In this document: in pieces, positions 2,462 through 35,400 of the stretch | Layout: every line of letters begins with the position of its first letter | Position numbering within the stretch: position 1 is the stretch's first letter | Source of the DNA: a virus | Virus record (IMG/VR): IMGVR_UViG_3300000651_000004 | Coordinates: 8-64,007 of that record | Length of the DNA stretch: 64,000 nt | Direction: 5' to 3' (one strand) | Program-made: the position numbers and the translations under genes | Notes under the pieces: model-generated | Seen by the model: the letters and a program-made list of their open reading frames with translations, nothing else | The model's database searches: none | Told to the model about the DNA's origin: nothing

Positions 2462-3768
2462 AAGAATACCTGTCAACTGCCCCAGAGCTCTTCGATTATC
2501 AAATCCCCCATGTCGAGGCCCTGGAACGGGCACTCATGTTCAATAACGTAGCCCTGGACGCCAGCGACCTGGGCACCGGCAAAACTGTATGCGCCTGCGC
2601 CCTGGCTCGGAAACTCGGGAAAAACATGATCGTCGTCTGCAAGAAGAGTATGAAGCCCACCTGGGGCTGGTGGATGGAAGAGTGGGGCCGAAGCGGCATT
2701 GTCGGCAACTGGGAGATGGCTCGTCGGCGGGGATTGCCCAATAAGGAGGGCTGGCTCTACGTGTTCGATGAAATACATGAGGCTGGCGGTTATAAAACAC
2801 TGAATGCACGCCTGCTCATAAACACTTACCTCCAAGGGCACTCGATCCTCATGCTCTCGGCCACCGCCATCGAAAGCCCCCTGAGGATGTGGGCTCTTGG
2901 GTATTTGCTCAAGTTCCATAATCTAAAGGACTTTTACCGCTGGGGATTCAAAAACGGGGTCAAAAGGAACTATGGATTCCCCGGATACCACTTTGACGGG
3001 CAAAAAAGGCACTTGGAAGGCATAAACCGGCACATTTTTCCTCATTTTGGGTCCAGAATGCGGAAAAACGAGATAAAAGGCTTCCCGGAGTGCCAATTCG
3101 TCCTGGACCTCGTAGAAGGCGATTTTGAGGCTAAAAACCTCGAAAAATGGCGTAAAATGATCGAAATCCGGGAGTTGGAGCACGAAACACGCGTAGAAGA
3201 GGCTCTAAATGGACCTAACGGCCCGGATTTCAATGCCGGCAACGATGTTTTACCTCAAATCCTCTTTGCCAGGATGCGCGCGGAGCTTGGGAAGGTCCCG
3301 GCCATCATTGAGGAAGCTAATGATGGGCTAAGAGAGGGTTATTCGACCGTGATCTTCGTCAACTTCCTCACCTCGATGGCCGCATTGCGGGAACTGGCCT
3401 TTCCGGCGGCCGGTTACATCTATGGAGGCCAGAATGAGGAGGAAAGAGCTACTTCCATCCGGCTTTTCCAGCAGAACAAGACCCAAACGATTATTTCAAC
3501 GATCGACAGCGGGGGCGCTTCCATCGACCTGCATGATTTATCGGGAAACCACCCCCGCCTGGCCTTGGTTTGCCCAACCTGGCGCGGAGTGACTTTACGC
3601 CAGGCGCTGGGCAGGGTCCACCGGGCCGGGGGAAAGAGCAAGTCGATCCAGAAGTTAATCTATTGCTCTGGCAGCATAGAAGAACAGATCGCAGCGCGAG
3701 TCAGGCGAAAGTTAGCAGATATCGATACAATCAATGACAGCGACTTGACTGAAACCGAATTCGTATGA
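2434..3768 (+). CDS. SNF2-like superfamily 2 DNA helicase
   Basis: ATP-dependent DNA translocase/helicase of 444 aa, expected to act in phage replication or recombination. Visible motifs in order: Q-like IPHVEAL near residue 25; Walker A DLGTGKT (45-51); DEIH box (111-114); SAT motif LSATA (about 140-144); helicase C-terminal lobe from about residue 290; motif VI QALGRVHRAGGKS near residue 390. This is the minimal SNF2-like core typical of phage helicases, with no accessory nuclease domain. It overlaps the next gene by ATGA and lies upstream of the PrimPol gene, forming a replication module. The exact substrate (forks, D-loops) cannot be read from sequence. Confidence 0.9.
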   Translation: MYQNPLSSIEEYLSTAPELFDYQIPHVEALERALMFNNVALDASDLGTGKTVCACALARKLGKNMIVVCKKSMKPTWGWWMEEWGRSGIVGNWEMARRRGLPNKEGWLYVFDEIHEAGGYKTLNARLLINTYLQGHSILMLSATAIESPLRMWALGYLLKFHNLKDFYRWGFKNGVKRNYGFPGYHFDGQKRHLEGINRHIFPHFGSRMRKNEIKGFPECQFVLDLVEGDFEAKNLEKWRKMIEIRELEHETRVEEALNGPNGPDFNAGNDVLPQILFARMRAELGKVPAIIEEANDGLREGYSTVIFVNFLTSMAALRELAFPAAGYIYGGQNEEERATSIRLFQQNKTQTIISTIDSGGASIDLHDLSGNHPRLALVCPTWRGVTLRQALGRVHRAGGKSKSIQKLIYCSGSIEEQIAARVRRKLADIDTINDSDLTETEFV

Positions 3769-13653: not shown

Positions 13654-13917
13654 ATGCAGATCACCATATCATATGGAATGCAGAGTGTAACGGTCGACCG
13701 GCCGGAAGGCACCACGGTCGGGGCATTGATGCAAGATCCCAATATCCGCGCGGTAGTGGGATTTACGGAGAATAGCGTCCCCTTAATCGGCGGGGCGGCC
13801 GTCGACAACGGTTACGTGGTCCAGGACGGGGACGAGATCGCGCTTCAGGCGCGAGCCGCGACCAAGGCCTACTGGGTATTGGGGAATCTTCTGATTCCCT
13901 GCAATCTAGCTATTTAA
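13654..13917 (+). CDS. ubiquitin-like (ThiS/MoaD-type beta-grasp) protein
   Basis: Small protein of 87 aa with the beta-grasp strand pattern: ITISYGMQSVTVDRPEGTTV (strands 1-2), helix GALMQDPNIRAVVGF, then VPLIGGAAVDNGYVVQDGDE and IALQARA. 'GttVg.ll....v..v......vl.dGDeI.l' is the order seen in ThiS/MoaD and phage Ub-like proteins. It heads a cluster with E1-like (15545), PRTRC-B-like (14413) and JAB (17138) genes, making it the likely modifier. Unusual: after ATKA there are 18 more residues (YWVLGNLLIPC...) and no terminal Gly-Gly, so it may need processing, or be conjugated or used differently. Leader GGAAAGAACAAA precedes ATG. Confidence 0.7.
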   Translation: MQITISYGMQSVTVDRPEGTTVGALMQDPNIRAVVGFTENSVPLIGGAAVDNGYVVQDGDEIALQARAATKAYWVLGNLLIPCNLAI

Positions 13918-13940
13918 GCTAGCACCAAAATAAACTGATA

Positions 13941-13978
13941 CCCCCTGGCCTTGAAGCGGTCAGGGGGTTTTTATTTTT
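13941..13978 (+). terminator. intrinsic terminator abutting the next start codon
   Basis: CCCCCTGGCC (13941-13950) pairs with GGTCAGGGGG (13958-13967; one G-T pair), followed by TTTTTATTTTT. The ATG of the next gene is at 13979, so the Ub-like gene may be made as a separate, more abundant transcript with read-through to the enzymes. Confidence 0.8.
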
Positions 13979-14140
13979 ATGGCAAAACTAAAGAAATATA
14001 AAAGAACTAACAGACAAATCCAGGCCGCTTCGCGCAATATGGCGCGTGCCAGGCGCAGCCCCAAAGAACAACTGCTTTTAATCGGCACTCGCCCTGGCGA
14101 ATCCAAACGCGAAGTTAAACGTTTAATGAAACAGCTATGA
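13979..14140 (+). CDS. small basic protein (53 aa)
   Basis: MAKLKKYKRTNRQIQAASRN MARARRSPKEQ..., strongly Lys/Arg-rich; a helix with many exposed Lys. It starts directly after the terminator T-run and overlaps the next gene by ATGA. With its many lysines it could be a nucleic-acid binder or a substrate in the Ub-like cluster; that is speculation. Confidence 0.5.
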   Translation: MAKLKKYKRTNRQIQAASRNMARARRSPKEQLLLIGTRPGESKREVKRLMKQL

Positions 14141-14325
14141 AAATCTCCTATGAACAAATGTTGGAGATTATCGACTACATTAATGCTCTCCTGGCCAAGG
14201 AAGGACCGCTGCTTATGACACGCTACAAATGGGCGCGGGCTTTCAAAGAGCTGGACAAGATCAAGGCTAAGGAAAAGAAACGATTAACAAAACTAACTAA
14301 ATCCAAGAAAGAAAAGAAACCATGA
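14137..14325 (+). CDS. small helical basic protein (62 aa)
   Basis: MKISYEQMLEIIDYINALLA..., helical N-terminal half and Lys-rich tail (KKRLTKLTKSKKEKKP). Coupled by ATGA to both neighbours inside the Ub-like cluster. Function unknown. Confidence 0.5.
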   Translation: MKISYEQMLEIIDYINALLAKEGPLLMTRYKWARAFKELDKIKAKEKKRLTKLTKSKKEKKP

Positions 14326-14432
14326 CCAACGCTGAAGCCAAAGCTTACAACGACCTAGCGCGCATCGCTGACGCCTTGGAAGACATTTTAAAAGTCTTAA
14401 TAGAAATTAAGAATGAAACAGCTGCCAAATAG
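14322..14432 (+). CDS. very small helical protein (36 aa)
   Basis: MTNAEAKAYNDLARIADALE DILKVLIEIK..., one amphipathic helix with heptad-like Leu/Ile spacing. Starts by ATGA overlap behind GAAAAGAAACC. Its end overlaps the PRTRC-B-like gene (start 14413) by 20 nt. Likely a small interaction peptide. Confidence 0.45.
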   Translation: MTNAEAKAYNDLARIADALEDILKVLIEIKNETAAK

Positions 14433-15201
14433 CTTTTTGACCCTGACCCATGAGGGCATTCACCGGGTCTCGATCGCTTGTGAGCCGGTCTACAACATTG
14501 ACGCCCTGGTGTCCAGGTTCGCGCAAGAGAAACAATTAATTTTCCCGCGCATTGCCGAGGTGCCTTTCGGGCTCCTGCACCTGGCGGTGCGCTCGAGCGC
14601 GACCCCCTGGAAGATGGCGGTCTTGGAACTTTCAAGCGGGTCAATGGTTTTTGACACGCTTTACCATCCGGTCAAGCGCGCGAACGATGAAGGATACGAA
14701 GAGCACGAGCTTGGGGAATGGATATCCCCTTGCTTTTGCAAGGTGAAAGACAGCTTCCCCTTGCGTTGCGAGTTCCAGTTCAACCTCTGGTACGAGGCGG
14801 GCTTGAGGCTCTTTCTCTCCGTATCCAGCGGCAACCTGGTCCAGTTCTGGGTATATTTCGACGGCCAGATTTACCGGCCGCCTTTCGGGAACATCTTCGA
14901 GTCTTCTTACCAGGTCTGTTTCGGTCACAACGAGACAGCTCTGGTCAAGGCGCTGGACAACCGTTATAGCGACTCGGGCAAGCTGTCGCGTATTCTGACT
15001 ATGCTCTCATCGAGCCCCTGGAACGCGGACACCTTCATTCAGGGCGATATCGCGATCCTGAACGATCTGGTCCGTTTTGACAGCACAAAAGCGGAGCTGC
15101 CGATGCTGCCGCCTTTAAACCCGCACAGAATCAAGGAATGCCACGTGGCCGCCAACAAGGATCTGGCGGACATCACCGGACGCATTGTCACCTACGTATG
15201 A
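14413..15201 (+). CDS. PRTRC protein B-like (candidate E2-like) protein
   Basis: Protein of 262 aa. The C-terminal half carries YRPPFGNIFESSYQVCFGHN (residues 154-173), matching the 'P-F-x-N-[IV]-x5-V-C-x-G' signature of PRTRC system protein B, which Aravind and co-workers grouped with prokaryotic E2-like folds; Cys169 would be the thiol-ester candidate. The N-terminal half is beta-rich and unknown. It lies between the Ub-like gene and the E1-like gene, and shares ATGA coupling with the next gene (15198), as expected for one pathway. Assignment rests on motif pattern and synteny; a search with a PRTRC-B profile would decide. Confidence 0.6.
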   Translation: MKQLPNSFLTLTHEGIHRVSIACEPVYNIDALVSRFAQEKQLIFPRIAEVPFGLLHLAVRSSATPWKMAVLELSSGSMVFDTLYHPVKRANDEGYEEHELGEWISPCFCKVKDSFPLRCEFQFNLWYEAGLRLFLSVSSGNLVQFWVYFDGQIYRPPFGNIFESSYQVCFGHNETALVKALDNRYSDSGKLSRILTMLSSSPWNADTFIQGDIAILNDLVRFDSTKAELPMLPPLNPHRIKECHVAANKDLADITGRIVTYV

Positions 15202-15548
15202 TCGAACCAAATAAAGATAATTGGCACCATGAAGTGGTTGAGAAAGCCAGGGTTAACCATAGCGCTGCCCTGGCTGACTTGATCAAGATTCACCGGGCCA
15301 ACCTGCTGGCTCAGTTTACCAGCAGAGTAAGGAACAGGTACGACCATTTCGATGTCTTCACCTTGGTTAACATCCTGGCCCAAGGCTACCTGGACCCCTA
15401 CGCGCGCGACACGTTGAACGCGCTCGACCCGCAATTAGAAGAGCAATTGAGCCAGATTTATAACCTGACGCAATCCGCCCTGGCCAAGATCTCCAAACTA
15501 CAAGCGCCGGATCTCGGCAAATTGAAAGAACTACTTAACTATCTATGA
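15198..15548 (+). CDS. unknown helical member of the Ub-like cluster (116 aa)
   Basis: MIEPNKDNWHHEVVEKARVN..., mostly helices (LADLIKIHRANLLAQF; FDVFTLVNILAQGYL; SQIYNLTQSALAKISKL). Start at 15198 overlaps the stop of the PRTRC-B-like gene and its stop overlaps the start of the E1-like gene (ATGA), so the three are co-translated. Not recognised; a partner or adaptor of the E1/E2-like proteins is the simplest idea. Confidence 0.6.
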   Translation: MIEPNKDNWHHEVVEKARVNHSAALADLIKIHRANLLAQFTSRVRNRYDHFDVFTLVNILAQGYLDPYARDTLNALDPQLEEQLSQIYNLTQSALAKISKLQAPDLGKLKELLNYL

Positions 15549-16201
15549 GCCATTTAATTGTTGGAGCCGGGGGCACCGCCAGCTGGCTGGTGCCCTTGCT
15601 CAAGCGGATGGTCAAGCCTCCGGCCAATATCACGGTTTGTGACGGCGACATCCTGGAAGCCAGGAACATTGATCGCCAGCTCTTTGACCAAACCTTTATC
15701 GGCTGGAACAAAGCGGAAGCCCTGGCTGAACTGCATATCATAAACTATGACCCGAATTATCTATCGCGGGATTGGGACCTTTATTCTATCGAAGGACCGT
15801 GGAGTTGTCTCTGGTGTTGCGCGGACAATCATGTTGCTCGCGCTTTATGCCTGGACCTGGTTGACGAAGACAAGGCGCTAATGACCATCATCGGGGGCAA
15901 CGAGTACAACGATAGCGAGGCATACCCCTATTTAAAAGCCTGGAAAGGCAGCAGTGCCGATCCCAGGCTTTATTATCCGGAGCTGCTTAACGATCAAAGC
16001 AACGATCCGACCAACCCCAGTTGCCAGGGATTACCGCAGGAACAAAATCGCCAGCTGGCTCTGGCCAATTACTTAAGCGCCGGATTCATGATGCACTTGT
16101 ATTGGTTCATCACCAATCATGGCCACGAGGTGGAGAAGATCAATTGGCCGATGCGCCACATGTGCAATTTTGCGGCCTTTAACACCAAACCAATGCGATG
16201 A
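15545..16201 (+). CDS. E1-like / ThiF-family adenylating enzyme
   Basis: Short ThiF/E1-superfamily protein (218 aa) expected to adenylate the C-terminus of the Ub-like protein. Visible: glycine loop VGAGGTAS (6-13); acidic CDGDILEARN (32-41); RQLF (44-47) with Lys56 (WNKAEA), the 'D-x-D..E..N..RQ..F...G..K' signature of the family; an Asp at ADNH (93-96); and a Cys in NPSC (about 160) followed by a helix-rich LALANYLSAGFMM, as in PRTRC-type ThiF proteins, which end 'PSCSLAEAL..Q.LF.N'. It lacks zinc CxxC pairs and other E1 domains. Coupled by ATGA to both neighbours. Strong family call; target unknown. Confidence 0.85.
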   Translation: MSHLIVGAGGTASWLVPLLKRMVKPPANITVCDGDILEARNIDRQLFDQTFIGWNKAEALAELHIINYDPNYLSRDWDLYSIEGPWSCLWCCADNHVARALCLDLVDEDKALMTIIGGNEYNDSEAYPYLKAWKGSSADPRLYYPELLNDQSNDPTNPSCQGLPQEQNRQLALANYLSAGFMMHLYWFITNHGHEVEKINWPMRHMCNFAAFNTKPMR

Positions 16202-17154
16202 AATTTCAGCTATATATCAACGCAGTAAATCACCATGTTAAAATCATCACTGAAGGGCAACAATCAGGGGCTGACTTTGTTCTGCTCGCCGAGCGCGATC
16301 CGGAAGAAGAGATCCAGTTCACATCCGATTGTGCTTATTACAACCCATTGCTTAAGCGTATCGACGCCCTGCAGCTCTTTCTGGTCAATGGTACTGGCGA
16401 TCTGATGGGCTATCATTCCGGTCGCCCTCCGGGATCGCTTAACAAAGCTGAGCGAAAGATCTTGTGGCGCGGCTGGTTCAAGTTAATTCCGCGCAACTTG
16501 AGCGCCCTGGACGTGCCGCCCTTGATCTTTGCTCAGATGCAGCGGTTTCCCAAAATGAAAGGGGTAATCAGCCAGGCAATAAGAACTCAGATGGGATTGC
16601 GGGTGCCGGATGAACTGGAAGCGCCTGATATCGACGCCTGGATGGCTTGGATCATGGCGCAACGGATGGCGATCACGCCGGTAATCAAAAGCTGCTTCGA
16701 ACAGCTTCGAACTAGTCCATCATTCCTGGTTTTTCCTGTTCCGGTCAAAACCTTCTTTTTGACCGGGGTTGAGCCTGAGCCGCAGTTTGAGATTCGAGTA
16801 CGGCGATGTGAGATTCGCACCGTTAAACAACTTCAACGCCAGCTGTTCGAATCTTACGAGCACCGTCTTACGGTGCCCAAGTCGTTGCTGGACGCCGGCA
16901 ATGACGCTCTCCTGGCTCATGCTAAAAAAGAGTGGGGCGATGACTGGGACCAGATTCAGCAGTATTCGACCGGATCAGACTTAATCCAGGCTGATAAAGC
17001 CGAATCGATTGAAACCGGACTGATCATTTTCGTTAAAGGCCCCAACGATTCGAGCTTCCAATTCTGGAGTGATCCGGCTGGCCGGCCGGATTCGATTCAC
17101 GATTTATTCGCGAAAGTTATCGAGGAACAAGAACACAATGCAAGAGTACGTTGA
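16198..17154 (+). CDS. unknown member of the Ub-like cluster (318 aa)
   Basis: MKFQLYINAVNHHVKIITEG..., mixed alpha/beta protein with no recognised domain. Segments of note: RIDALQLFLVNGTGDLMGYH; helix-rich centre with IDAWMAWIMAQRMAITPVIK; FLVFPVPVKTFFLTGVEPEP; C-terminal SIETGLIIFVKGPNDSSFQF. Starts by ATGA overlap with the E1-like gene and ends 17 nt inside the JAB gene, so it belongs to the same unit. It is not one of the PRTRC proteins I can recognise, and may hold a fast-diverging substrate-recognition or E2/E3-type function. Confidence 0.65.
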   Translation: MKFQLYINAVNHHVKIITEGQQSGADFVLLAERDPEEEIQFTSDCAYYNPLLKRIDALQLFLVNGTGDLMGYHSGRPPGSLNKAERKILWRGWFKLIPRNLSALDVPPLIFAQMQRFPKMKGVISQAIRTQMGLRVPDELEAPDIDAWMAWIMAQRMAITPVIKSCFEQLRTSPSFLVFPVPVKTFFLTGVEPEPQFEIRVRRCEIRTVKQLQRQLFESYEHRLTVPKSLLDAGNDALLAHAKKEWGDDWDQIQQYSTGSDLIQADKAESIETGLIIFVKGPNDSSFQFWSDPAGRPDSIHDLFAKVIEEQEHNARVR

Positions 17155-18232
17155 CCCATTCATTACTAGTGACGGGAAATTTTATACCCGTTTCGAGAGT
17201 CCGCTGGTCACGGGCTATATGCCCGTTCCGATCCCGAAGGGTGACCCCACCCTTCGCTGGCACGGGCCGAAGATCCATTTGGAACAAAGCTGGTGGCCGG
17301 CTTTGAAATTCATGGAAGACCATGCCGCGCATGAAGTGATTTTGCGGCTCTTCATGCTGGCTGATAAATCTGAGATCATCATTTTTCCGCTTAGCCAGAT
17401 CTATGGCACCGGCATGACTGTGAAAGAAGAGATAAGCCAGGAAGAGCGCGAAACCTGGGCTAAAGCCGGCCTGATTGAGGCCGGCACGGTACATAGCCAT
17501 TGTGATGGAGGCGCGTTTCAATCCTCGACTGATAAGAACGATGAGGAAGCCCGTGACGGGCTCCATCTTACAGTCGGCAAACTGAAAAGCGATCAATTCG
17601 ATATTCATTCGAGGATGACCTGGACGATTCCAGGAGAAGAGAAAGACGGAAAAGTTATCCGGGCATCCATCCGAACCAGCCAGGCAACGAACCTGGCCGA
17701 TTGGTTTATCTTTCCTGATCACGTACTGGCTTTCATCGCGGCAGAACCGGAGCTGGAACGGGATGTGATTAAATACGTGCTGACCAAGCCTCCGCATGTG
17801 CATGTCGTCTATCCTCCAGAGTGGAAAGAGAAACTGATTCGCCGCCAGACTATGGTTACCAGCACCAGCCCAGTCGCTGGTTCGCATAACATGTGGAGTG
17901 CGCCTTATCAGCAGCAGCCTCTCTCGATGGCTGACGATATCCCAATCTATAAAAAAAAAGAAAACAGCCAAAACCAGGACCCAAGATTGCTCGACGCAAA
18001 AGAAAACCTCATCTGGGATCTCTGGAGTGAGGTGATGGGTATAATCGCTGACAGTGCCCAGCTTCGTGAGTACCAGGTCAGTGTCAGCGATTTTGAACCC
18101 ATTAAACGGCCGCAGCTCTTCAAATGCGTACCGGAAGCAGTAGAGGTATGGGCATCAATCGCCGGGATGCTGGCCGCCAACAACGTTTCTGAAGCAGAGT
18201 TTTTTCAAAACTTTGACGACAGGCTTACTTGA
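17138..18232 (+). CDS. JAB/MPN (JAMM) metalloprotease
   Basis: Zinc isopeptidase-like protein of 364 aa, expected to remove or process the Ub-like modifier. The JAMM signature H-x-H-x7-S-x2-D is complete: His119, His121, Ser129, Asp132 (VHSHCDGG...QSSTD), with an upstream Glu candidate in AHEVIL (about residue 66). N-terminal part beta-rich; C-terminal part (from about 260) is helical and unknown. Start ATG behind GAACAAGAACACA; an upstream in-frame ATG at 17069 lies in the preceding gene. Corresponds in role to the JAB-bearing protein A of PRTRC clusters. Family call strong; the Glu is less certain. Confidence 0.85.
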   Translation: MQEYVDPFITSDGKFYTRFESPLVTGYMPVPIPKGDPTLRWHGPKIHLEQSWWPALKFMEDHAAHEVILRLFMLADKSEIIIFPLSQIYGTGMTVKEEISQEERETWAKAGLIEAGTVHSHCDGGAFQSSTDKNDEEARDGLHLTVGKLKSDQFDIHSRMTWTIPGEEKDGKVIRASIRTSQATNLADWFIFPDHVLAFIAAEPELERDVIKYVLTKPPHVHVVYPPEWKEKLIRRQTMVTSTSPVAGSHNMWSAPYQQQPLSMADDIPIYKKKENSQNQDPRLLDAKENLIWDLWSEVMGIIADSAQLREYQVSVSDFEPIKRPQLFKCVPEAVEVWASIAGMLAANNVSEAEFFQNFDDRLT

Positions 18233-19903: not shown

Positions 19904-20326
19904 ATGCCTCCTTCAATTCCTGCACCGGGAATTCCACCTGAAGTACGGCTTTCAACTCAAGTGCCAGCCGGGGTAAAATTGCCAGCTGGCACCCAACCCA
20001 ATCAATTGGATAACCCACCCCTGACCCGTTCGATTATTCCGAGCGCCACCCCGCCCCAATACGTGGTCAGCGACCCTTTTACCGGGTTGGGAGTGATTGA
20101 GGTTTTGAATATTCGAGCAGCCATGTTGGCGCGCCTGGAGCTGCTTGACGCGGACAAGGAAGTTAATCCCGACAATGTTGACGCTGTAAAACGGGTCCTG
20201 GCTGTTTTAAGCGCCAAGCTCGACCCTCGCCCTGCCAATGCAGGACTCGCAGTGCTTCCGATCCCCGCACCACCGCCGGCCCTGGTTGGGACAGTGCCGA
20301 TGCCTCAACCGTTGCCGCTTAAATAA
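19904..20326 (+). CDS. Pro-rich hypothetical protein (140 aa)
   Basis: MPPSIPAPGIPPEVRLSTQV..., Pro-rich at both ends with a helical centre (LGVIEVLNIRAAMLARLELL; NVDAVKRVLAVLSAKLD). A shorter frame MPGARERICFVSDSPPFQ (19801-19881) lies before it and is not counted. Overlaps the convergent minus-strand gene at its 3' end by 22 nt. Function unknown. Confidence 0.5.
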   Translation: MPPSIPAPGIPPEVRLSTQVPAGVKLPAGTQPNQLDNPPLTRSIIPSATPPQYVVSDPFTGLGVIEVLNIRAAMLARLELLDADKEVNPDNVDAVKRVLAVLSAKLDPRPANAGLAVLPIPAPPPALVGTVPMPQPLPLK

Positions 20327-20874
20327 TTGGCGGCGATCTGGGTCCAGGCGCTCAAGCGGCCGGCAATAAAAAGATAAGGAGCCAGTGATGCCGGTAATCC
20401 GATCGTGATCGCTACACACGCTGTGTAAGCGCTGGGATTTGGATAAAGTTGTTTGCCCAACGCTGCAAACTCGGCAGTAACCGAATCCAATCTCCTGGCC
20501 AGTTCAGGCCGGAACTTGCGAAGAAGATCATCTACTTCGACCCAGATTGGATCAATCTCTTCCCGCTGGAACGTGCCGCCCCATCCCGGCACTCTTTCAT
20601 TACGACCAAGGATCAACGGCATTTCGATTGCTGGGAAAGGCTGATCCAAAAATTCGACAGTTTTCTCTAAAGGCGCATGCTTAGCGCCGATGCATAATAT
20701 CCCAGCCGCAATCGCTTTCGCCAGACACCCGCCGCCAGCGGCAGCGTTGGTGACCGTGACAGTGGACGGATTATTGCGAAAAGTACTTTCATGATGCGCA
20801 CGAAAGAGCGCATCCAGTAACTGCTGCTCGCTTTCGGTGAGCGGTTCAGCACGCCAAAAAGGAACAATGCCCAT
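20305..20874 (-). CDS. truncated citrate-synthase-like protein (189 aa)
   Basis: Resembles the catalytic core of citrate synthase or citryl-CoA lyase. RAHHESTFRNNPSTVTVTNA (about 26-45) corresponds to 'adHelNASTFaaRv.aStga'; AAGILCIGAKHAPLEKTVEF to 'aaGi.aL.GPlHGGAnE.v'; RVPGWGGTF to 'iPGfGHrvY'; and PSAYTACVAITIGLPASLAP then YLFIAGRLSAW to 'd.ysg.l...lGip...fT.lFaiaR..GW'. The full enzyme is about 370-430 aa, so the N-terminal part is missing. The second active-site His region reads GGTF in place of GHxx and the position of the catalytic Asp appears to be Ser/Ala. So it may be non-catalytic or act on another CoA substrate. On the minus strand, starting over the divergent + gene. Confidence 0.6.
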   Translation of the reverse strand: MGIVPFWRAEPLTESEQQLLDALFRAHHESTFRNNPSTVTVTNAAAGGGCLAKAIAAGILCIGAKHAPLEKTVEFLDQPFPAIEMPLILGRNERVPGWGGTFQREEIDPIWVEVDDLLRKFRPELARRLDSVTAEFAALGKQLYPNPSAYTACVAITIGLPASLAPYLFIAGRLSAWTQIAANYLSGNG

Positions 20875-26408: not shown

Positions 26409-29400
26409 TCATTCTTCTCCCTCTTCTTCAGGCTCCTCGTAATGAAAGGTGCGCCGGGAAAACAAACTGCTCGGCACATAGTTGCCGTTATGCCTGGCAT
26501 TCTTTAAGATTCCCTCGCTCGGTATATAAGGATGGTACCGGCCAGCCATCAGATCATCGATTACCTGAGCTGAATAGCGCCTGGCTGCCAGCGCAATCCT
26601 AATTTCATTTGAACTCATTCCACCAAAGCGTGCTGCTTCAATCCTGTCGTGCAAATCATTGAACGCATTCCTTCTCGCGTTCTCGCTCTTCTGGTAAAGC
26701 GCAGCGATTTGATCATCGCTTAAGTTTGAGTTGCTTCTTTGGATAGGCGAGGTAAAGAGCTGCTCAGTCTTACCGATCTGATCTTTGCTTGAAGCTATAT
26801 AGCTTCTGAACCTCTCCGGAAAAGACACCTCGTGCATGCCTAAGCCGGTGATCTCAGCCGCCGGGCCGGTCAACCAGTTGTAAACCGCCCCGCCAGGTGT
26901 CACCTGGTCATTGATGGCATAAGCTCGTCCACTTAACAGGTGCCCGACTGATCCGCCGAGTCCTCGCTGGGTCAGATAATGAAGAATGTCCCCGCTTCTG
27001 GTCCAGATGTCTTCATTAGGATTGTAAACCTGGGTACCGTATGAAGTCTGATTACGCGCCACATCAATCACCGGGCCGGTAAAAAGCCCGAAGCTGTACA
27101 TCGGTTTAAATATTTCATTCACGAAATCTGCTCCAGCACCCATGATTCCATCCGGGTTGTTCCGCATGTTGAGCAACGCGTGGAACGCCTGGTAAATGGT
27201 GCTGGCCTGATTGGTATAGCCCATATTGATATACGCCATCTTGTTGCCGTCTTTAGGCAAATAAAAGATGGCGTTGTGCTGTTCCCAAGGCGGCAGGAGC
27301 TTGCGAAAGTTTTCGTCATCCTTCTCACTGATCCCAAAGGCAGCCATGGTTGCTCTCTGGATTAGGTATGTTCCCAGAAGAGTGCTCATTGCCCCGCCCA
27401 ATCGTGCGGCTCCATTCCATCGTCGGCGCGAGTTATCGGAAACTAAATTTTTCCAGCCATGAATAACATTATTGAGCCAGGCTTTGATATGCTGCTCTCC
27501 GAAACTTAAGAAGGTGCCAAGCAACGGGTTGCGTCGGAGCGCCATGATGTTGGGGCTGACCTGGGAATAAGAGATGTTGGTATCTCGTATCTCTTTGGCA
27601 GCTGTCTGTTCAATTTCTTCATCACTTAAACGCCGGCCGCCTTTAGCCACATCTTCATCATTGATCCAACGCTGGATCGCTTTTTCCATATGAAATTGAA
27701 TCACCTTCGACATGAAGGGTCCGGTGGTGTGCAGTTTCTGCATCCAATCCTTTGCTGTCTCACCCGCTCTTAGCCATGGTTGTTCTTTCATTATTCGCTG
27801 TGACCAATGGCTGTAGGCTTCCTGCAGATCCAGCGGCACCGTTCCTGCCTGGGCCTGGTGCTGGATAAAGTTCATCATCTCATGAATGTTAGTTTCCTTA
27901 TCCCCCAGTCCCAGCCGGATGTAATGTTCCAGCTCAGCCTGGCGCTGCGGATTAGTCTGGCGCATAAGATCGGCCATGAACACTTGGCCTGCTTTCTTCC
28001 AGCTTAAGCCTAACGCTTTCAAAGCAGGCCCCTGGAAGTAGTATCCATTTACCATCGGCTGCATGTAGGTGGTGTGAAAGTTTCCCATGCTGCGCGGGAG
28101 GTTGCCCATCGTAGCCAGGTAACGTGTTGCACTCTCCATTTTGCGTATCCCCTGGCCAATAAAACCGGATTTAAATTTAACCAGGTTTTGATTATAACTG
28201 GTGAGCCCTGCAGCTACCTCCGGGGTCGTGTACATGCCGCGCACCTTGCCCAGGTGATCGAAGTCTTCTGGCAATCGCACGCTGCAGGTGGGAGTCATGG
28301 TCGGTGAAAGCCAGCCGCCTTGACGCCCGAGAGTGTACATCCCATCGGCAATTTCATGGGCAGCAATGAATTTTGCCTGCCGTTCCATGGACTGCTGATA
28401 GATCTTGCGGATGTCGCCCATGTTTTTGGTTTGTCTATAGCGGCCAGTGGGATTACCAAACTTGTCCAGTATCGGGATATCAGCGCCAGGTCCGAACTTG
28501 CCCATCAACTGATGAACTTCCGGGGGCATGTATTTGAGATCCTTCATGATTGAATCATCAATATTGTAAGCGTGCCCATACTGTAGGAAGTGGGTCTGCT
28601 TGTTGCGGGTGCGCTGCTCCCATTCATTAAATTTATAGTCCAGGAAGTTGGCCCCGGTATGCTTCATGGCGGCAGCCTTCTCGGCAAAGTAAGCTCGGCG
28701 CGCAGCCAGCCTGGCCACCGGGTCAGTGGGGTCAGGGTGTTTGCGTAACTCATTGTTGCGCGCTTCTTCCGCCCGATACTTGGCGTACTGGGTCCGATTA
28801 TCACCGACCAGCCAGGCGTCTACCGCTGCTTCAGCCGCTGCCAGGCGCACACCTTGCGGTGCGGCCGCTGTTTTTTCCCCAGTAAATTCTGGCCGGCGAC
28901 GCCAACGGGTGTCGTTAAAAACATCGTAGCTGGTGGTAAAATACTTGCCGATATTGTTGCGGATGGCGATGAGCTTGTCTTGGCCAACCATCTTCTTCAT
29001 CCCGATGTACTGAGAGTTGTCATCGACATCATTGCGCATGTTATAGAGCGAATCGATTAGCTCATTGCTCCAGCCAGGGGGTGGGTTCATCTCCATCCGC
29101 GCAACCTTTAAAAAGTCCTCGGTAATTTTGGGGTCCAGTTTGTCGTAATGAACTTTGAATTGCCGTTGCGCAGCCTTCTCCAGGTCACGCATCCGGCTAT
29201 TCACCCTGGAGCTTACCGCTTGGAAGTCGTAGGTCTTATGCTGTGTAATCAGCTCCTGTAATTCCGGAGGCAAATTGCCGCCGTATTTCCAGTCTTTGCC
29301 CCACCGGATGATCTTGGAAGCCAGGCTGTCATAGTCTTGTTTGCTACCGCCCAAAGGCAAAGCCAGGCGGTTCAGAGTCTGATCATCCAGACTGTTTAGC

Positions 29401-32400
29401 CCCTGGTGCGCCTGGATAAATTGCTGCAGGGTGATTGCCTTATCTTTAAATGCCTGGTCAACCACGTGCCGTAAGGCTTCAGTGTCATGGTGCTGGGTGC
29501 CGGTAACCTTGGCCAGGTGATCAAGGATATCGGTCGGCTGATTCATAGTCTTCAGCTCCGGGGTGGACCGGATCATCCCATCGGTGCGCGGTTCGCCCAC
29601 CATGTGCGGTGCGGCCAGGTCGCGCGCATTCTGACTGAAGGCGTTGCCTTCTCTCCATTCACTGAGCCATTGACGTAGCGTGTCTTTCGGCACTGAGCGA
29701 GCGCCAGTGTATCCTTCCCGGTTCGCACGTTCTTCCAGCGCTCGCCTGGCGAGTAGGTTCTCACGCATCACCATGGAACTGCGCACCTTTAAACCCCCGG
29801 CTGTGACATCGGCTTCCATCAGTCGCCGGCCGTCGCCGGCCAGGGACATGGTATTATTGAATGCGCGTCCCAGTAGGGTGTCATCCCTGAACCCGAGAAG
29901 TTTGCGTATCCAGTTAAAGGTTTTGTGCAGCAGGTTCTTGTGCGGAGCTTCCGCTTTGATTCCATTCAGGTGATCCTGCAACTCGCCGTTGCTTAAGACT
30001 TCAGAGGCAAACTCACGCAGATCGGTGAGCCCATAGAACTTGTTCCCAAGAGCCGGGTCACGCTGCAATAAATCCAGCATGGCAGCTTCACGCTGCTTAT
30101 AGGTATCCATGCTGGCGATATCTCTAATAACTTGCGGGGTAGCTGGATCGCGCAGAGCGGCACGGCGCGCGGCCTCAATCTCGGAGATGTGATGCATCTG
30201 CGCAGGGGAAAGAAGATCAGTCTGCCCTTTCTGGTAAGCGTCGATTGCTCCTTGAGTCAGCGCGTGAGTAACCTCGTGGATGATCGAGTGTTCGATTGGC
30301 TCATCCTCGTAGTGGGGATTAATCTCTACGGTGTCATGCCGGAAATTGTAACCACCGGCATAGCCGCCGATCCGCTCATCCAGGGCGATTGCGATCTGTG
30401 GATATTTTTTAACTATCTTAGCCAGCTCCCTGGCCAACGCCCGGTGGCGCGGGTTTTCCGATAAGTCGGCAACTTTGGTCAAGGCTTCATGTACGCCCTT
30501 GTTAAGCCCGTACTTCATTGCTCGCGCAGTAGCCTGCTTTTCCGATGGCGTCATCGGGTACGCGCCTTCCAGGTTATGGGTATTGGGATCGAACCGGGTC
30601 GGCATCCCTGGATGGTTCGCGCTGAATGTGTGCGCGGAATCGGCGTATCTCAGTGCGTTGGCCCCGAATATCTGGCGAGCCCATTGCCGGGTGCCTTCCA
30701 GGAAGGTGCGCCCGTCAGCCATCCTGACACCGTCCAGGTAACGGCGAAAGTTGCCGTTGCTGAACGCGGCCATAACAAAGTTCTCCGGGGAATGGGCTGC
30801 CCACAGAATGGGCAGCCAATTCTTTTGCTCCTCAGTCATGTAACGGGTATCCATTTCGCGATACCCGCTGGCCTTGAAGTTATCGAACTCAGGCGCGATC
30901 TCGTTCTCCAGGGCATCACGCAGATCAGCCGGCAAACTGCGTTTAAATCTGTTATGCAGATCTACCAGGCGCTGATGGCTTTGCATCTCTTCCGGGGTCT
31001 GCGGTTGGGCGATCTGGCGCTGGGCAATGGCATGCTGTAAGGTGTGCGCCATCGCCATCATCCCTTGGGGATCATGCACTGCCGAATTGCTGACCCAGAG
31101 CTCGCCGTTATGGGCGAACATCACGCCTACGGGAGAGTTCACCTGGCGCACCGGCATGTCCGTCAGGTTATTCTTGAAAGCGTTAAGCGTGCGCGCGAAC
31201 TCCTGCAGGTCGGTATTGGTGGAATGGTTGCGCAGGAACCCAACCAGATCAGTGGCTTTGCCACTAAAGCCGTGCATCGCCTGCACCCCAGGCACCATCG
31301 AGTGCAGGGTGCCGCTTGAGCCGGCCCCTCCTGGGGGCTCAGCCGGTGGAAGGTCACCCATTTGCTGACGCAAGGAATTAATGTGGTCATTAATGACTCC
31401 TTCACCCACCGTTCCACCCAACGCACGCTGGATGGTCGAGACAATTTCACTTGAATTTAAACCTGTTAATCCAAGCCGGCTGGCCATTTCCGGGTTTGCT
31501 TTCACCGCATTAGCCAGGCTGTCCGCTGCGTCCCAATTAAGTTTCTCGGCGGGTGCCGCCTCACCGGCTGCATAAATTGGTTTGCGTGGTGCTGCCGCTT
31601 CTTCTGCTTGAATAGCCTTGTTAAATTCCCTGCCCCATTCCATCAGGGCCCCGAACTTTTCACTGCGGGAAGGAATCCCGGCCGCCACCTGGTCTTTGAG
31701 ATTGTTGGCAAGATCCGTGATACCGGCCCTGCTCCAATCTCCTGCCAGGCGCTTGGCAACTTCCGGGTAAACCTGGGCGGCTTTCTCGATCTGGGGAATA
31801 AGTTTCTCGATCGAGGTGCCGGATAATTTAATCTGAGGGATCTGCTCACGCGGTGCAGCAGCTGGTGCTTCAGCCGGTGGTGTTTCAGCCTCTGGCGCAC
31901 GTGGTAGAGGTTCTGTTTTCCATCCCTTAGGGAGTAAGCTGTGACTGCCGAAGTTTTCTTCATTCAACGGTTCAGCTCTGTTAAGATCCACCATTGCCAC
32001 GTCTAAACTCGTGCCCCTGAATGGAACATCCCGCGAAAAAGGATAATAAACCCCGTTCATTACCTCCCCTGAGCTAGTAGCTTTGTGTTCGCCTGTAGCC
32101 CTTGGTCCTTGAATCTCAGCCTGTATGGCTGAAACGGTGTGCGAACCAGATATAAAGATTTTGCCGTCCTGCCTTTGAACGGCTCTTCCATTGGGTATGT
32201 CCGACCAAGGTCGCCGGTATCCCGAACTGTCTACATAAGGGGACGGAGCAGTATTGCCAGGAGTCTGTTCGATAGCTTCCCTTAACTTAACCGGCTGTTC
32301 CGTAGGTGTTTCCGGTGTCGACAGTCTTACTAGGAGTCGCTTCTCGCCGCGATCAGTTAGGGCTCCTGCGCGCTGGTGCTCAGTGGCAATCGGCCAGTTG

Positions 32401-35400
32401 CCCACATCCAAGTTGACGTTGCCTTTAGCAACCGCGCTTTTAAGATAGTTGTGCATCTGGGGGATCGAAACCCCCAGTTCTCTGGCCAGATCGGAAATAA
32501 AAACGGCGCTACCCAGCTGGCCTTTCTGGATTTTCTCAACAGCAGCCTGAACCGCAGGTGAAATCTTGCCTGAGCCAGGAAGCTTCTCGGCAAAAGCAGG
32601 TTCTACGCCAGCTGCTCCTCCTGTGGGTTCTGCAGCTCTTGCGATGCCAGTTGCTCCTCCTCCGGCGGTGGGGTTTGTTCCGCCAGTTTCTTCTGGCCCC
32701 TTGGCGATGACTTCTCCGATCCGCTCTGGCTCCCTGGCAACGGTAGTTGTGCCCCCAGGTCGCTCAGCACCGCCTTCTCGCTCTCCTCCGGTGGTGGGCC
32801 TTGGCCTTTCAGTTGTCTCTGCGGGGGCTTCAACGACGCCTCCGGTTGCGCCTCCGGGAGGAGGCCCTCCTGTGCCACCTGGTCCTCCGGTTGTCCCTCC
32901 CTCTCCTTCTCCCCGTCGAAGAAGTTCCCCAGTTGGTCCAACAGTCCCTTCGCCTTTTTCCTCACGTCCGGGTTCACCTCCGCCAGTGACTTCAGTCGGT
33001 CCACCAGCTTGTTCGCCGGGTACTCCGGGTTGTTGAAGAACTTCTGGCGCAGGTGGCGGGGCAACTGCTGGTTGTTCGCCAACAGCTTTAGCGTGTTCTG
33101 CCGCTCTTGCGGCGGCCTGCTCGTGTCGAGCACGTGCCTCAGCCTCTCGCGCGCTCCAAAGCTCCGGGTGCCGTTCTCGGAATAGTTTGTCGATGATTGC
33201 TCTGGCTGCATCTGTCTCCTTTTTTGGCAACCCTTTGTAGTGTTTGATGTTCTCAGGTCGCTCTTCTTTAGGAACGCCCAAGTCTTCCAGGTTCCACCAG
33301 ACTGCCCGTTCTATCCAGGCGTTGGGTTTTTTACCGGCGTCTATGTCCTGTTTTCTTAATTGTGCAATTACATCATTGCCAAGCTGGATAAAATGGCTGT
33401 ACCCGATTTTATCTCTGCGAATAGCATCCTTTTCTTCATCGGTTAAAGCCGCTTCTTCAGTGCCTGGTACAGCTGCTCCTTCTTCAGTTACTGGAGAAGG
33501 ACCGATAGCTTCTTTGATTGCCCGCTCAGCTTCATCCTGTTCAGCCTGGGTTTCAATATCGGTTACTTCTTCTTTAGTGCGCCCTTCCCCGGCTTCTTCC
33601 TGCAGGGATTCCATCGGCGCTTTCTTCTGCTCTCTGGCTGCTTTCCGATATTCGTTCTTGGCTGCGCTTTCCAGGTATACCTTGATACTATGTACCTTGG
33701 TACCGTCTGGTGCTTCTTTGGTCATGGCCCAGTCTTTTTTTGGATCAGGGTCAATCTGGTCCTCTAAGCCAGCGGCTCTCATCGCCTGGCCATACCGGCG
33801 AAGCTGGGTCAGATAAGCGGTTACAGCGTTTGATCGCGCATTGTCTGCAAGAACAGTTCCTCTGACATCAGTAAAGATTCTACCCAGTAACCTTTCGGAG
33901 TCTTCACTGTTTACGAAGTCGGTAGCATGCTTAAGATAAGCAGCTTCATGTGGAGCTTCGGGGTGCGCTTCGAATCGGGCAGGCGGTTCCTTGGCCAGGA
34001 AAACGTTGCCTTCTACATTATGGAGGTAGTCTTCCGGGTTAAGCCCGTGAGCGGTAAGAAGTTTTTCAGCAGCTTCTTCCTGCTCTTCAGTCAAAGCTTC
34101 TGACCGGTGCCCTTTATTAACTAAGCCCATCAGTTTGGTGGGGTCATTAGTCTTGGCAGCCTCTTCAATTAATCCCGGCGGCAGTATGCCACCGGTTACT
34201 TCGCCTGGAGCCGGCTCGGCGGGGGGCGCTTCCACCACCGGTTTAGGCGCGCGAGCTGCCTGTTCTTCTGTCAGCCGGTCGCTCAAGTGCTCGTTAAAAT
34301 GTTCTGCGGCAATCCCCAGTTCATCCGGGGTGTTCTTGGCCCAGGCTTTTTCGGTCCAGCCAGGGGGGTGCATTTCCGCCTGGCTTTTGGGGAGCATGCC
34401 AAGTTGGTGCAGCATCTGGCGATAGTATCGTTTGTCATCCTTGTGGACATAATGTTCATCCTCGGGATGGCTATTGTTAACTTCCTGATCAATAAAGGTA
34501 TAAGCAATTTTGTTAGGAGTTTCACCGGTCAGCTTGGAAAGCTGATCGACCTTGTCCCGGATCTCCTGCTGGCGTTCGGCTATCTCGCGGCCGCCCTCAC
34601 CAGTGGGAACTTTGCCGGGAGTTTCTGCTTCGGCAGCAGGCGCAGCAGTAGGTCGCTCACCCAAAAGGTTTAAAGCATCCTGCGCCTGCGCTGCATGTTC
34701 GCGTGTATCAAAAACTCTAACGTTGCCTTGATCATCCAAATGTAATTCGAATGTGCCATCAGGGCTTCGCTCAATGTGACCTGCTCTAAGTTGATTACCA
34801 AACCTGCTTGTTCTTCGCCCAGTAGCCGAATCTACGGTAACCCCTAAAGGTTCGTTCGCTCCATTTACCCTACTTTGATCAACGAGTTCTCCAGGCAGTT
34901 TTGGTCCTGCTGCCGTTTTTTGACCAAGCTTGTCATATATTACACCTTGAGCAGCCGGTTCTTTCGCTTCAGGTTCCGCTTCTTCCTCCGGTTCAACCTC
35001 TTTTGCTTTTGGCATCGCCGCTTCCAGTTCGGCTTTGCGTTGAGCGATCCGGTCAGCCTGGGAAATGGTGCGGGTGGTCGAGGTGGCTTGAGTCTGCCTG
35101 GAAGATTGATCCAGGGCGGCGGCAGTCTGCGGGTTCTGCGGCCGGATCTGGTCAGCTACGTTCTTCTGGTCCTGGGCCGATTCATCCAAATTAATTCGCG
35201 CCCTGATCTTGTCCCGCATCTCAGGCGGCACCTTGTTGCGCAGCGCGATATCAATGGCAGCCTCATTAGTGATTGGGGTATCGGTGAGTTTTGCGCTCAA
35301 CTCATGATTACTCTGCACCAGGCTTTGCGCGATTTTTTTAACCTCATCGGCCTTTAAACGAATGCTGGCTTCCTCGGTCAGATGACCTCCCAATGTCCTG

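Follow-up and report, generated by a model that had tools for sequence, protein, structure and literature searches.

Does a phage carry a whole ubiquitin-like conjugation system of its own, together with the protease that would reverse it? The question is raised by positions 13654-18232 of the window, by which is meant the whole 64,000-nucleotide stretch of DNA analysed here, bases 8-64007 of a 78,595-base IMG/VR virus record (IMGVR_UViG_3300000651_000004). The source record is phage-like, with matches to tail fibre, endolysin and helicase, and outside the window it encodes a DNA polymerase and an exonuclease. Six plus-strand genes occupy the 4.6 kb, coding in order for a ubiquitin-like (Ub-like) protein of 87 amino acids (aa), a protein resembling ubiquitin-conjugating enzymes (E2-like, 262 aa), a 116-aa protein, an activating enzyme of the E1/ThiF type (218 aa), a 318-aa protein and a JAB protease (364 aa). 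An earlier, sequence-only reading had assigned the Ub-like, E2-like, ThiF and JAB open reading frames (ORFs), and all four were found on this strand where it had placed them. Sequence profiles and a structural model make it probable that they constitute a complete phage-encoded cassette for ubiquitin-like conjugation and deconjugation, sister to the PRTRC type of plasmids.

Identification of the cassette proteins

Profile hidden Markov models were built from relatives without the window sequence and run on 468 window ORFs. Each of the four proteins ranked first with its own profile, at E-values of 4.7e-19 (Ub-like), 4.8e-5 (E2-like, covering residues 152-231), 3.4e-52 (E1/ThiF) and 5.2e-32 (JAB). 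Because of this ranking, and because many viral contigs share the arrangement, the cassette is more than a product of chance.

The E1/ThiF-like enzyme (15545-16201) matched Pfam ThiF above the cut-off (1.4e-7). The GAGGTAS loop (residues 7-13) and the RQLF...K signature (RQLF at 44-47, K56) ascribed to it were found as described, along with N41 and D94-N95. Among relatives N41, R44, Q45, K56, D94 and C160 are invariant; C160, the candidate catalytic cysteine, aligns with the invariant C187 of plasmid PRTRC ThiF. The JAB/JAMM metalloprotease (17138-18232) likewise possesses the full HxH-x7-S-x2-D site that had been reported for it (H119, H121, S129 and D132), with Glu66 upstream, and E66, H119, H121, S129 and D132 are invariant among relatives. 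Direct searches with this protein gave weak matches to Prok-JAB (0.0037) and PRTRC_A (0.0079).

For the Ub-like protein (13654-13917) a direct family search gave no match at all. Its AlphaFold model, made from 12 sequences, has the beta-grasp order with a mean predicted local distance difference test score (pLDDT) of 76, low only from residue 70 on, in the tail. When the model was compared with the PDB by Foldseek, ubiquitin came first (2.1e-4), followed by the Bacteroides fragilis ubiquitin-like protein BfUbb and SAMP1. Strand order and best structural match thus both bear out the beta-grasp fold that had been claimed from the letters.

The E2-like protein (14413-15201) contains a candidate thioester cysteine, Cys169, within GNIFESSYQVCFG, and N204 and D206 are conserved. 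A direct Pfam search returned Prok-E2_D alone, below threshold (0.12) and over residues 151-176, the immediate surroundings of Cys169; the same family was matched by 8 of 16 E2-like relatives, at best with 1.6e-8. C169, G171 and D206 are invariant in 16/16 aligned proteins, and N160, N204 and L207 nearly so. The proposal of Cys169 as the thiol-ester residue is therefore upheld by its invariance. Canonical E2s have the motif HPN-x7-C, with an N-to-C spacing of 8. The segment P/S-N-[IV]-[YF]-x-x-G-x-[IV]-C of the E2-like proteins resembles it; the spacing is 8 in 46 of the 69 relatives that have the motif and 9 in the window's own protein. A sequence search of the PDB with the E2-like protein found no match.

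Relatives and phylogeny

Direct searches with single window proteins yielded no or few relatives. A ThiF alignment that included two phage homologues was used as query and led to 29 viral loci, and a second scan to 80. The order Ub, E2, small gene, E1, (gene at the 318-aa position), JAB is repeated in dozens of viral contigs: two of them (L005 and L006) have the same six genes in the order of the window, and a large group, to which L007-L018 and others belong, lacks the 318-aa gene and reads Ub-E2-small-E1-JAB. In a tree of 54 ThiF proteins the window falls in a 27-row clade with support 100/100, which consists of viral contigs and one 6.5-kb contig binned to a Verrucomicrobia metagenome-assembled genome. 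All eight plasmid ThiF sequences lie outside this clade, among other phage loci that include Bacillus phage vB_BauM_KLEB27-3 (OM634661). As the tree is midpoint-rooted, it gives no direction of transfer.

The sequence-only reading had also described the 116-aa gene (15198-15548) and the 318-aa gene (16198-17154) as standing in fixed places. This holds for position: the former, whose product looks alpha-helical, keeps its place between E2 and E1 across relatives, and in the subclade to which the window belongs the latter, of 203-440 aa in relatives, separates E1 from JAB. It does not hold for sequence. Profiles made from the relatives' small genes and 318-aa-position genes did not recognise the window copies, and homology is therefore not claimed. 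An identification of the 318-aa protein with PRTRC_F was considered and rejected, as the comparison gave about 0.1%.

An alanine-ended modifier

The predicted active tail of the Ub-like protein is LQARAATKA (residues 64-72), which is followed by a 15-residue extension, YWVLGNLLIPCNLAI. Among the recognisable tails of the clade, 37 end in K-A, 2 in K-Q, 1 in K-N and none in K-G, whereas the Ub-like tail of one locus outside the clade (L022) ends in EKG. One clade member without a recognisable tail (L065) was left out of these counts; at 2840-3553 of that contig a Ub-like domain is fused to about 165 more residues, distant from the E2 gene. Of the 42 proteins listed, 32 end precisely with the tail motif. 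The window protein and several close relatives run on for another 1-15 residues, and these extra residues could be removed by the JAB protease.

The Ub-like protein might alternatively be a sulfur carrier of the ThiS/MoaD type, charged by ThiF and freed by JAB, that delivers sulfur to a modified nucleotide or metabolite and has no protein targets. ThiF and MoaD relatives do this, as is established in thiamine and molybdopterin synthesis; the cassette E1 is a single ThiF domain, and JAB proteins occur in some sulfur-carrier operons (PMC1779556). Such a role is nevertheless improbable, since an E2-like protein with an invariant cysteine is always present in the clade. Besides, the cassette has no conserved neighbour that is a rhodanese, sulfurtransferase or acceptor enzyme, and its tail is without the C-terminal GlyGly of sulfur carriers.

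The modifier gene is set apart from its enzymes

Conjugation to proteins would consume the modifier, and the layout of the genes bears on its supply. Linkage by start/stop overlaps had been claimed for the whole cassette. It was found for the five genes from 14413 to 18232 (15198/15201, 15545/15548, 16198/16201 and 17138/17154) and not for the Ub-like gene, which stands outside this chain because it ends at 13917 and is followed by a strong terminator and a gap of 495 bp before the E2-like gene. The terminator (13940-13968, plus strand) is intrinsic, with 11 pairs and then TTTTATTTTT. Between it and the E2-like gene, at 13979-14325 on the plus strand, small basic ORFs (53 and 62 aa) are found; none was seen in relatives.

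The position of the terminator recurs in relatives. Non-redundant loci were surveyed for hairpins of -14 kcal/mol or better within 90 nt past a gene end. Terminator-like hairpins followed the Ub gene in 12 of 29 loci, E2 in 0/29, ThiF in 2/29 and JAB in 3/27, and the shuffled control gave 0/290; the terminator sequences themselves vary from locus to locus. The terminator behind the Ub gene points to production of the modifier at a level of its own, probably above that of the enzymes, as would be expected of a consumed substrate.

Comparison with PRTRC systems

Bacterial operons of type 6d have been known since 2006 (Iyer 2006, PMC1779556). To this type belongs PRTRC of plasmids, in which C, B, A and ThiF stand with E, F and ParB in the order ParB-E-C-F-B-A-ThiF (PMC1779556). 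Both PRTRC and the phage cassette combine Ub-like, E2-like, JAB and E1 genes on mobile elements, and they share the conserved E1 cysteine and a JAB protein with an N-terminal extension. At profile level PRTRC ThiF, B and A are homologous to the phage E1, E2-like and JAB proteins (hhalign 99.9%, E 1.6e-31; 96.4%, E 1.1e-9; and 97.4%, E 1.1e-11, respectively). A direct hhalign comparison of the Ub alignment with PRTRC_C gave 1.5%, so that of the profile matches that had been anticipated those for E1, E2 and JAB were obtained and the direct one for Ub was not.

No window protein reaches any NCBI PRTRC cut-off. The best NCBIfam match of E1 is PRTRC_ThiF (TIGR03736; 6.8e-8), with 32.1 bits against a cut-off of 144.75; JAB scores 15.8 bits against 101.8 for PRTRC_A (TIGR03735). 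The Ub-like and E2-like proteins had no NCBIfam match at E 1 and hence fall short of TIGR03738 (C) and TIGR03737 (B) as well. No counterpart of PRTRC E, F or ParB was recognised in the cassette; for E the comparison was by NCBIfam only. The phage order, Ub-E2-small-E1-(318)-JAB, is unlike that of PRTRC, the Ub tail is KA instead of KG, and E1 forms a separate clade. As all curated cut-offs failed and three PRTRC components (E, F and ParB) were unseen, the cassette is, on sequence grounds, a relative of PRTRC and not a member. The relatedness put forward in the sequence-only reading is in this way retained at the level of profiles, and membership of PRTRC proper is not.

The phage KLEB27-3 carries a PRTRC-like cassette in which Ub-like, E2, JAB and E1 are phage-borne as in the window. 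Its C protein scores above the PRTRC_C cut-off (8.8e-17) and its E1 groups with plasmid PRTRC. At 2730-3437 of this locus (L004) four tandem Ub-like repeats of the PRTRC_C type, with AGVKG at junctions and ends, form a phage polyubiquitin-like arrangement. The repeats match the phage Ub profile at 8.1e-10, with a profile that included the window sequence. It is on these repeats, matching both PRTRC_C and the phage Ub profile, that the link of the phage modifier to PRTRC_C rests. No description of phage-encoded PRTRC-like cassettes was found in the open-access literature, which is not proof of absence. As far as could be tested, three features are new: the virus-restricted clade, a modifier ending in alanine and the placing of the terminator.

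Genomic context and candidate targets

In the proposed cycle JAB would cut off whatever follows the conserved ..TKA tail in the Ub-like precursor. E1, in which the relevant residues are conserved, would adenylate the tail with ATP and load it on Cys160, after which it would pass to Cys169 of the E2-like protein. From there the modifier would be handed to amino groups of target proteins, and JAB would take it off again.

A gene for DnaN, RecT, PolA, SSB, exonuclease or SbcC was present in the fetched flanks of 30 of 54 non-redundant cassettes, a raw count without a background rate for phage genes. PolA is the neighbour in the group lacking the 318-aa gene; the window's closest relatives have RecT and exonuclease, and a Bacillota group and two plasmids have DnaN. 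The window cassette's own flank has none of the six. On one contig (L096, 6688-10064) a DnaN-like gene is followed by genes for a 109-aa protein ending in HAKG, ThiF, a 281-aa protein and an E2-like protein, so that a sliding clamp adjoins a Ub-like cassette. In the crAss-like phage cr111_1 (L003, 6761-11307) the region between the primase and uracil-DNA glycosylase genes contains ThiF and JAB genes next to those for two further proteins, one of 211 aa whose start may be Ub-like and one of 427 aa.

Since genes of replication and recombination are repeated neighbours of the cassettes, the first candidate targets are tentatively taken to be phage proteins of the replisome or of recombination. 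A fuller and more doubtful proposal is that the clade, confined almost wholly to viruses, uses its alanine-ended, separately made modifier to tag such proteins reversibly, as a viral parallel to the ubiquitylation and SUMOylation of PCNA. The modification of virion or host defence proteins had been suggested previously. Nothing was found here to support it, and the genomic context favours DNA replication and recombination.

Next among the target guesses comes counter-defence, in which the cassette would conjugate host immune proteins, or strip or block host Ub-like defence tags of the Bil/CBASS type. Bacterial anti-phage systems employ ubiquitin-like conjugation (PMC10097602), the Bil, Bub and type II CBASS systems use E1/E2/JAB chemistry likewise, and a phage-borne JAB could undo host tagging. 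In PADLOC only the ThiF domain of the cassette matched, weakly and partially, to fused E1-E2 models; JAB, E2 and Ub matched no family. In contrast to the defence systems, E1 and E2 of the cassette are unfused, CD-NTase or another effector is lacking, and the genes are phage-encoded and not anti-phage. That the cassette brings its own Ub-like protein and is a conserved module, often by replication genes and not by known anti-defence genes, makes counter-defence unlikely.

Decoration of the phage's own capsid or tail proteins is highly improbable. A Ub-like protein and a JAB domain do act in lambda-type tail assembly (TAPI/TAPK; PMC1779556), but there without E1 or E2. The cassette is without the NlpC/P60 domain, in its JAB protein as elsewhere, and without tail-gene context: the structural genes form a separate block on the opposite strand, and the cassettes of relatives adjoin replication genes. 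Because of this location, tail assembly of the TAPI/TAPK type does not fit. The structural-gene strand also bears a single 3569-aa ORF (26409-37118, minus). At 20305-20874 (minus) a 189-aa protein matches the citrate synthase C-terminal domain (PF00285, 5.8e-11), which is unusual in a phage.

Reversible tagging by a phage conjugation cassette has to be weighed against several observations that speak against it. The modifier is without the terminal glycine typical of known modifiers of this kind. The AlphaFold model of the E2-like protein has a pLDDT of only 43, and the window protein is tied to PRTRC_B over the cysteine motif and the following helix only. One histidine has been reported to be absolutely conserved in related bacterial E2s (PMC1779556), and it is not kept at the aligned place in the E2-like proteins. 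The raw nature of the proximity count belongs here too.

Implications

Plasmids and bacterial defence operons are known to carry complete E1-E2-Ub-JAB sets. To these, dozens of phage contigs add a distinct branch, whose modifier departs from the rule of a C-terminal glycine. An active cassette would amount to a viral ubiquitin-like pathway of compact size (4.6 kb), one that could be reconstituted in E. coli and would reveal how an E1 takes an alanine tail. It would also offer an experimental handle on the role of PRTRC-type systems in mobile elements, for which no assigned function was found although they have been known since 2006. During infection, viruses with such cassettes may mark proteins in much the same way as cells use ubiquitin.

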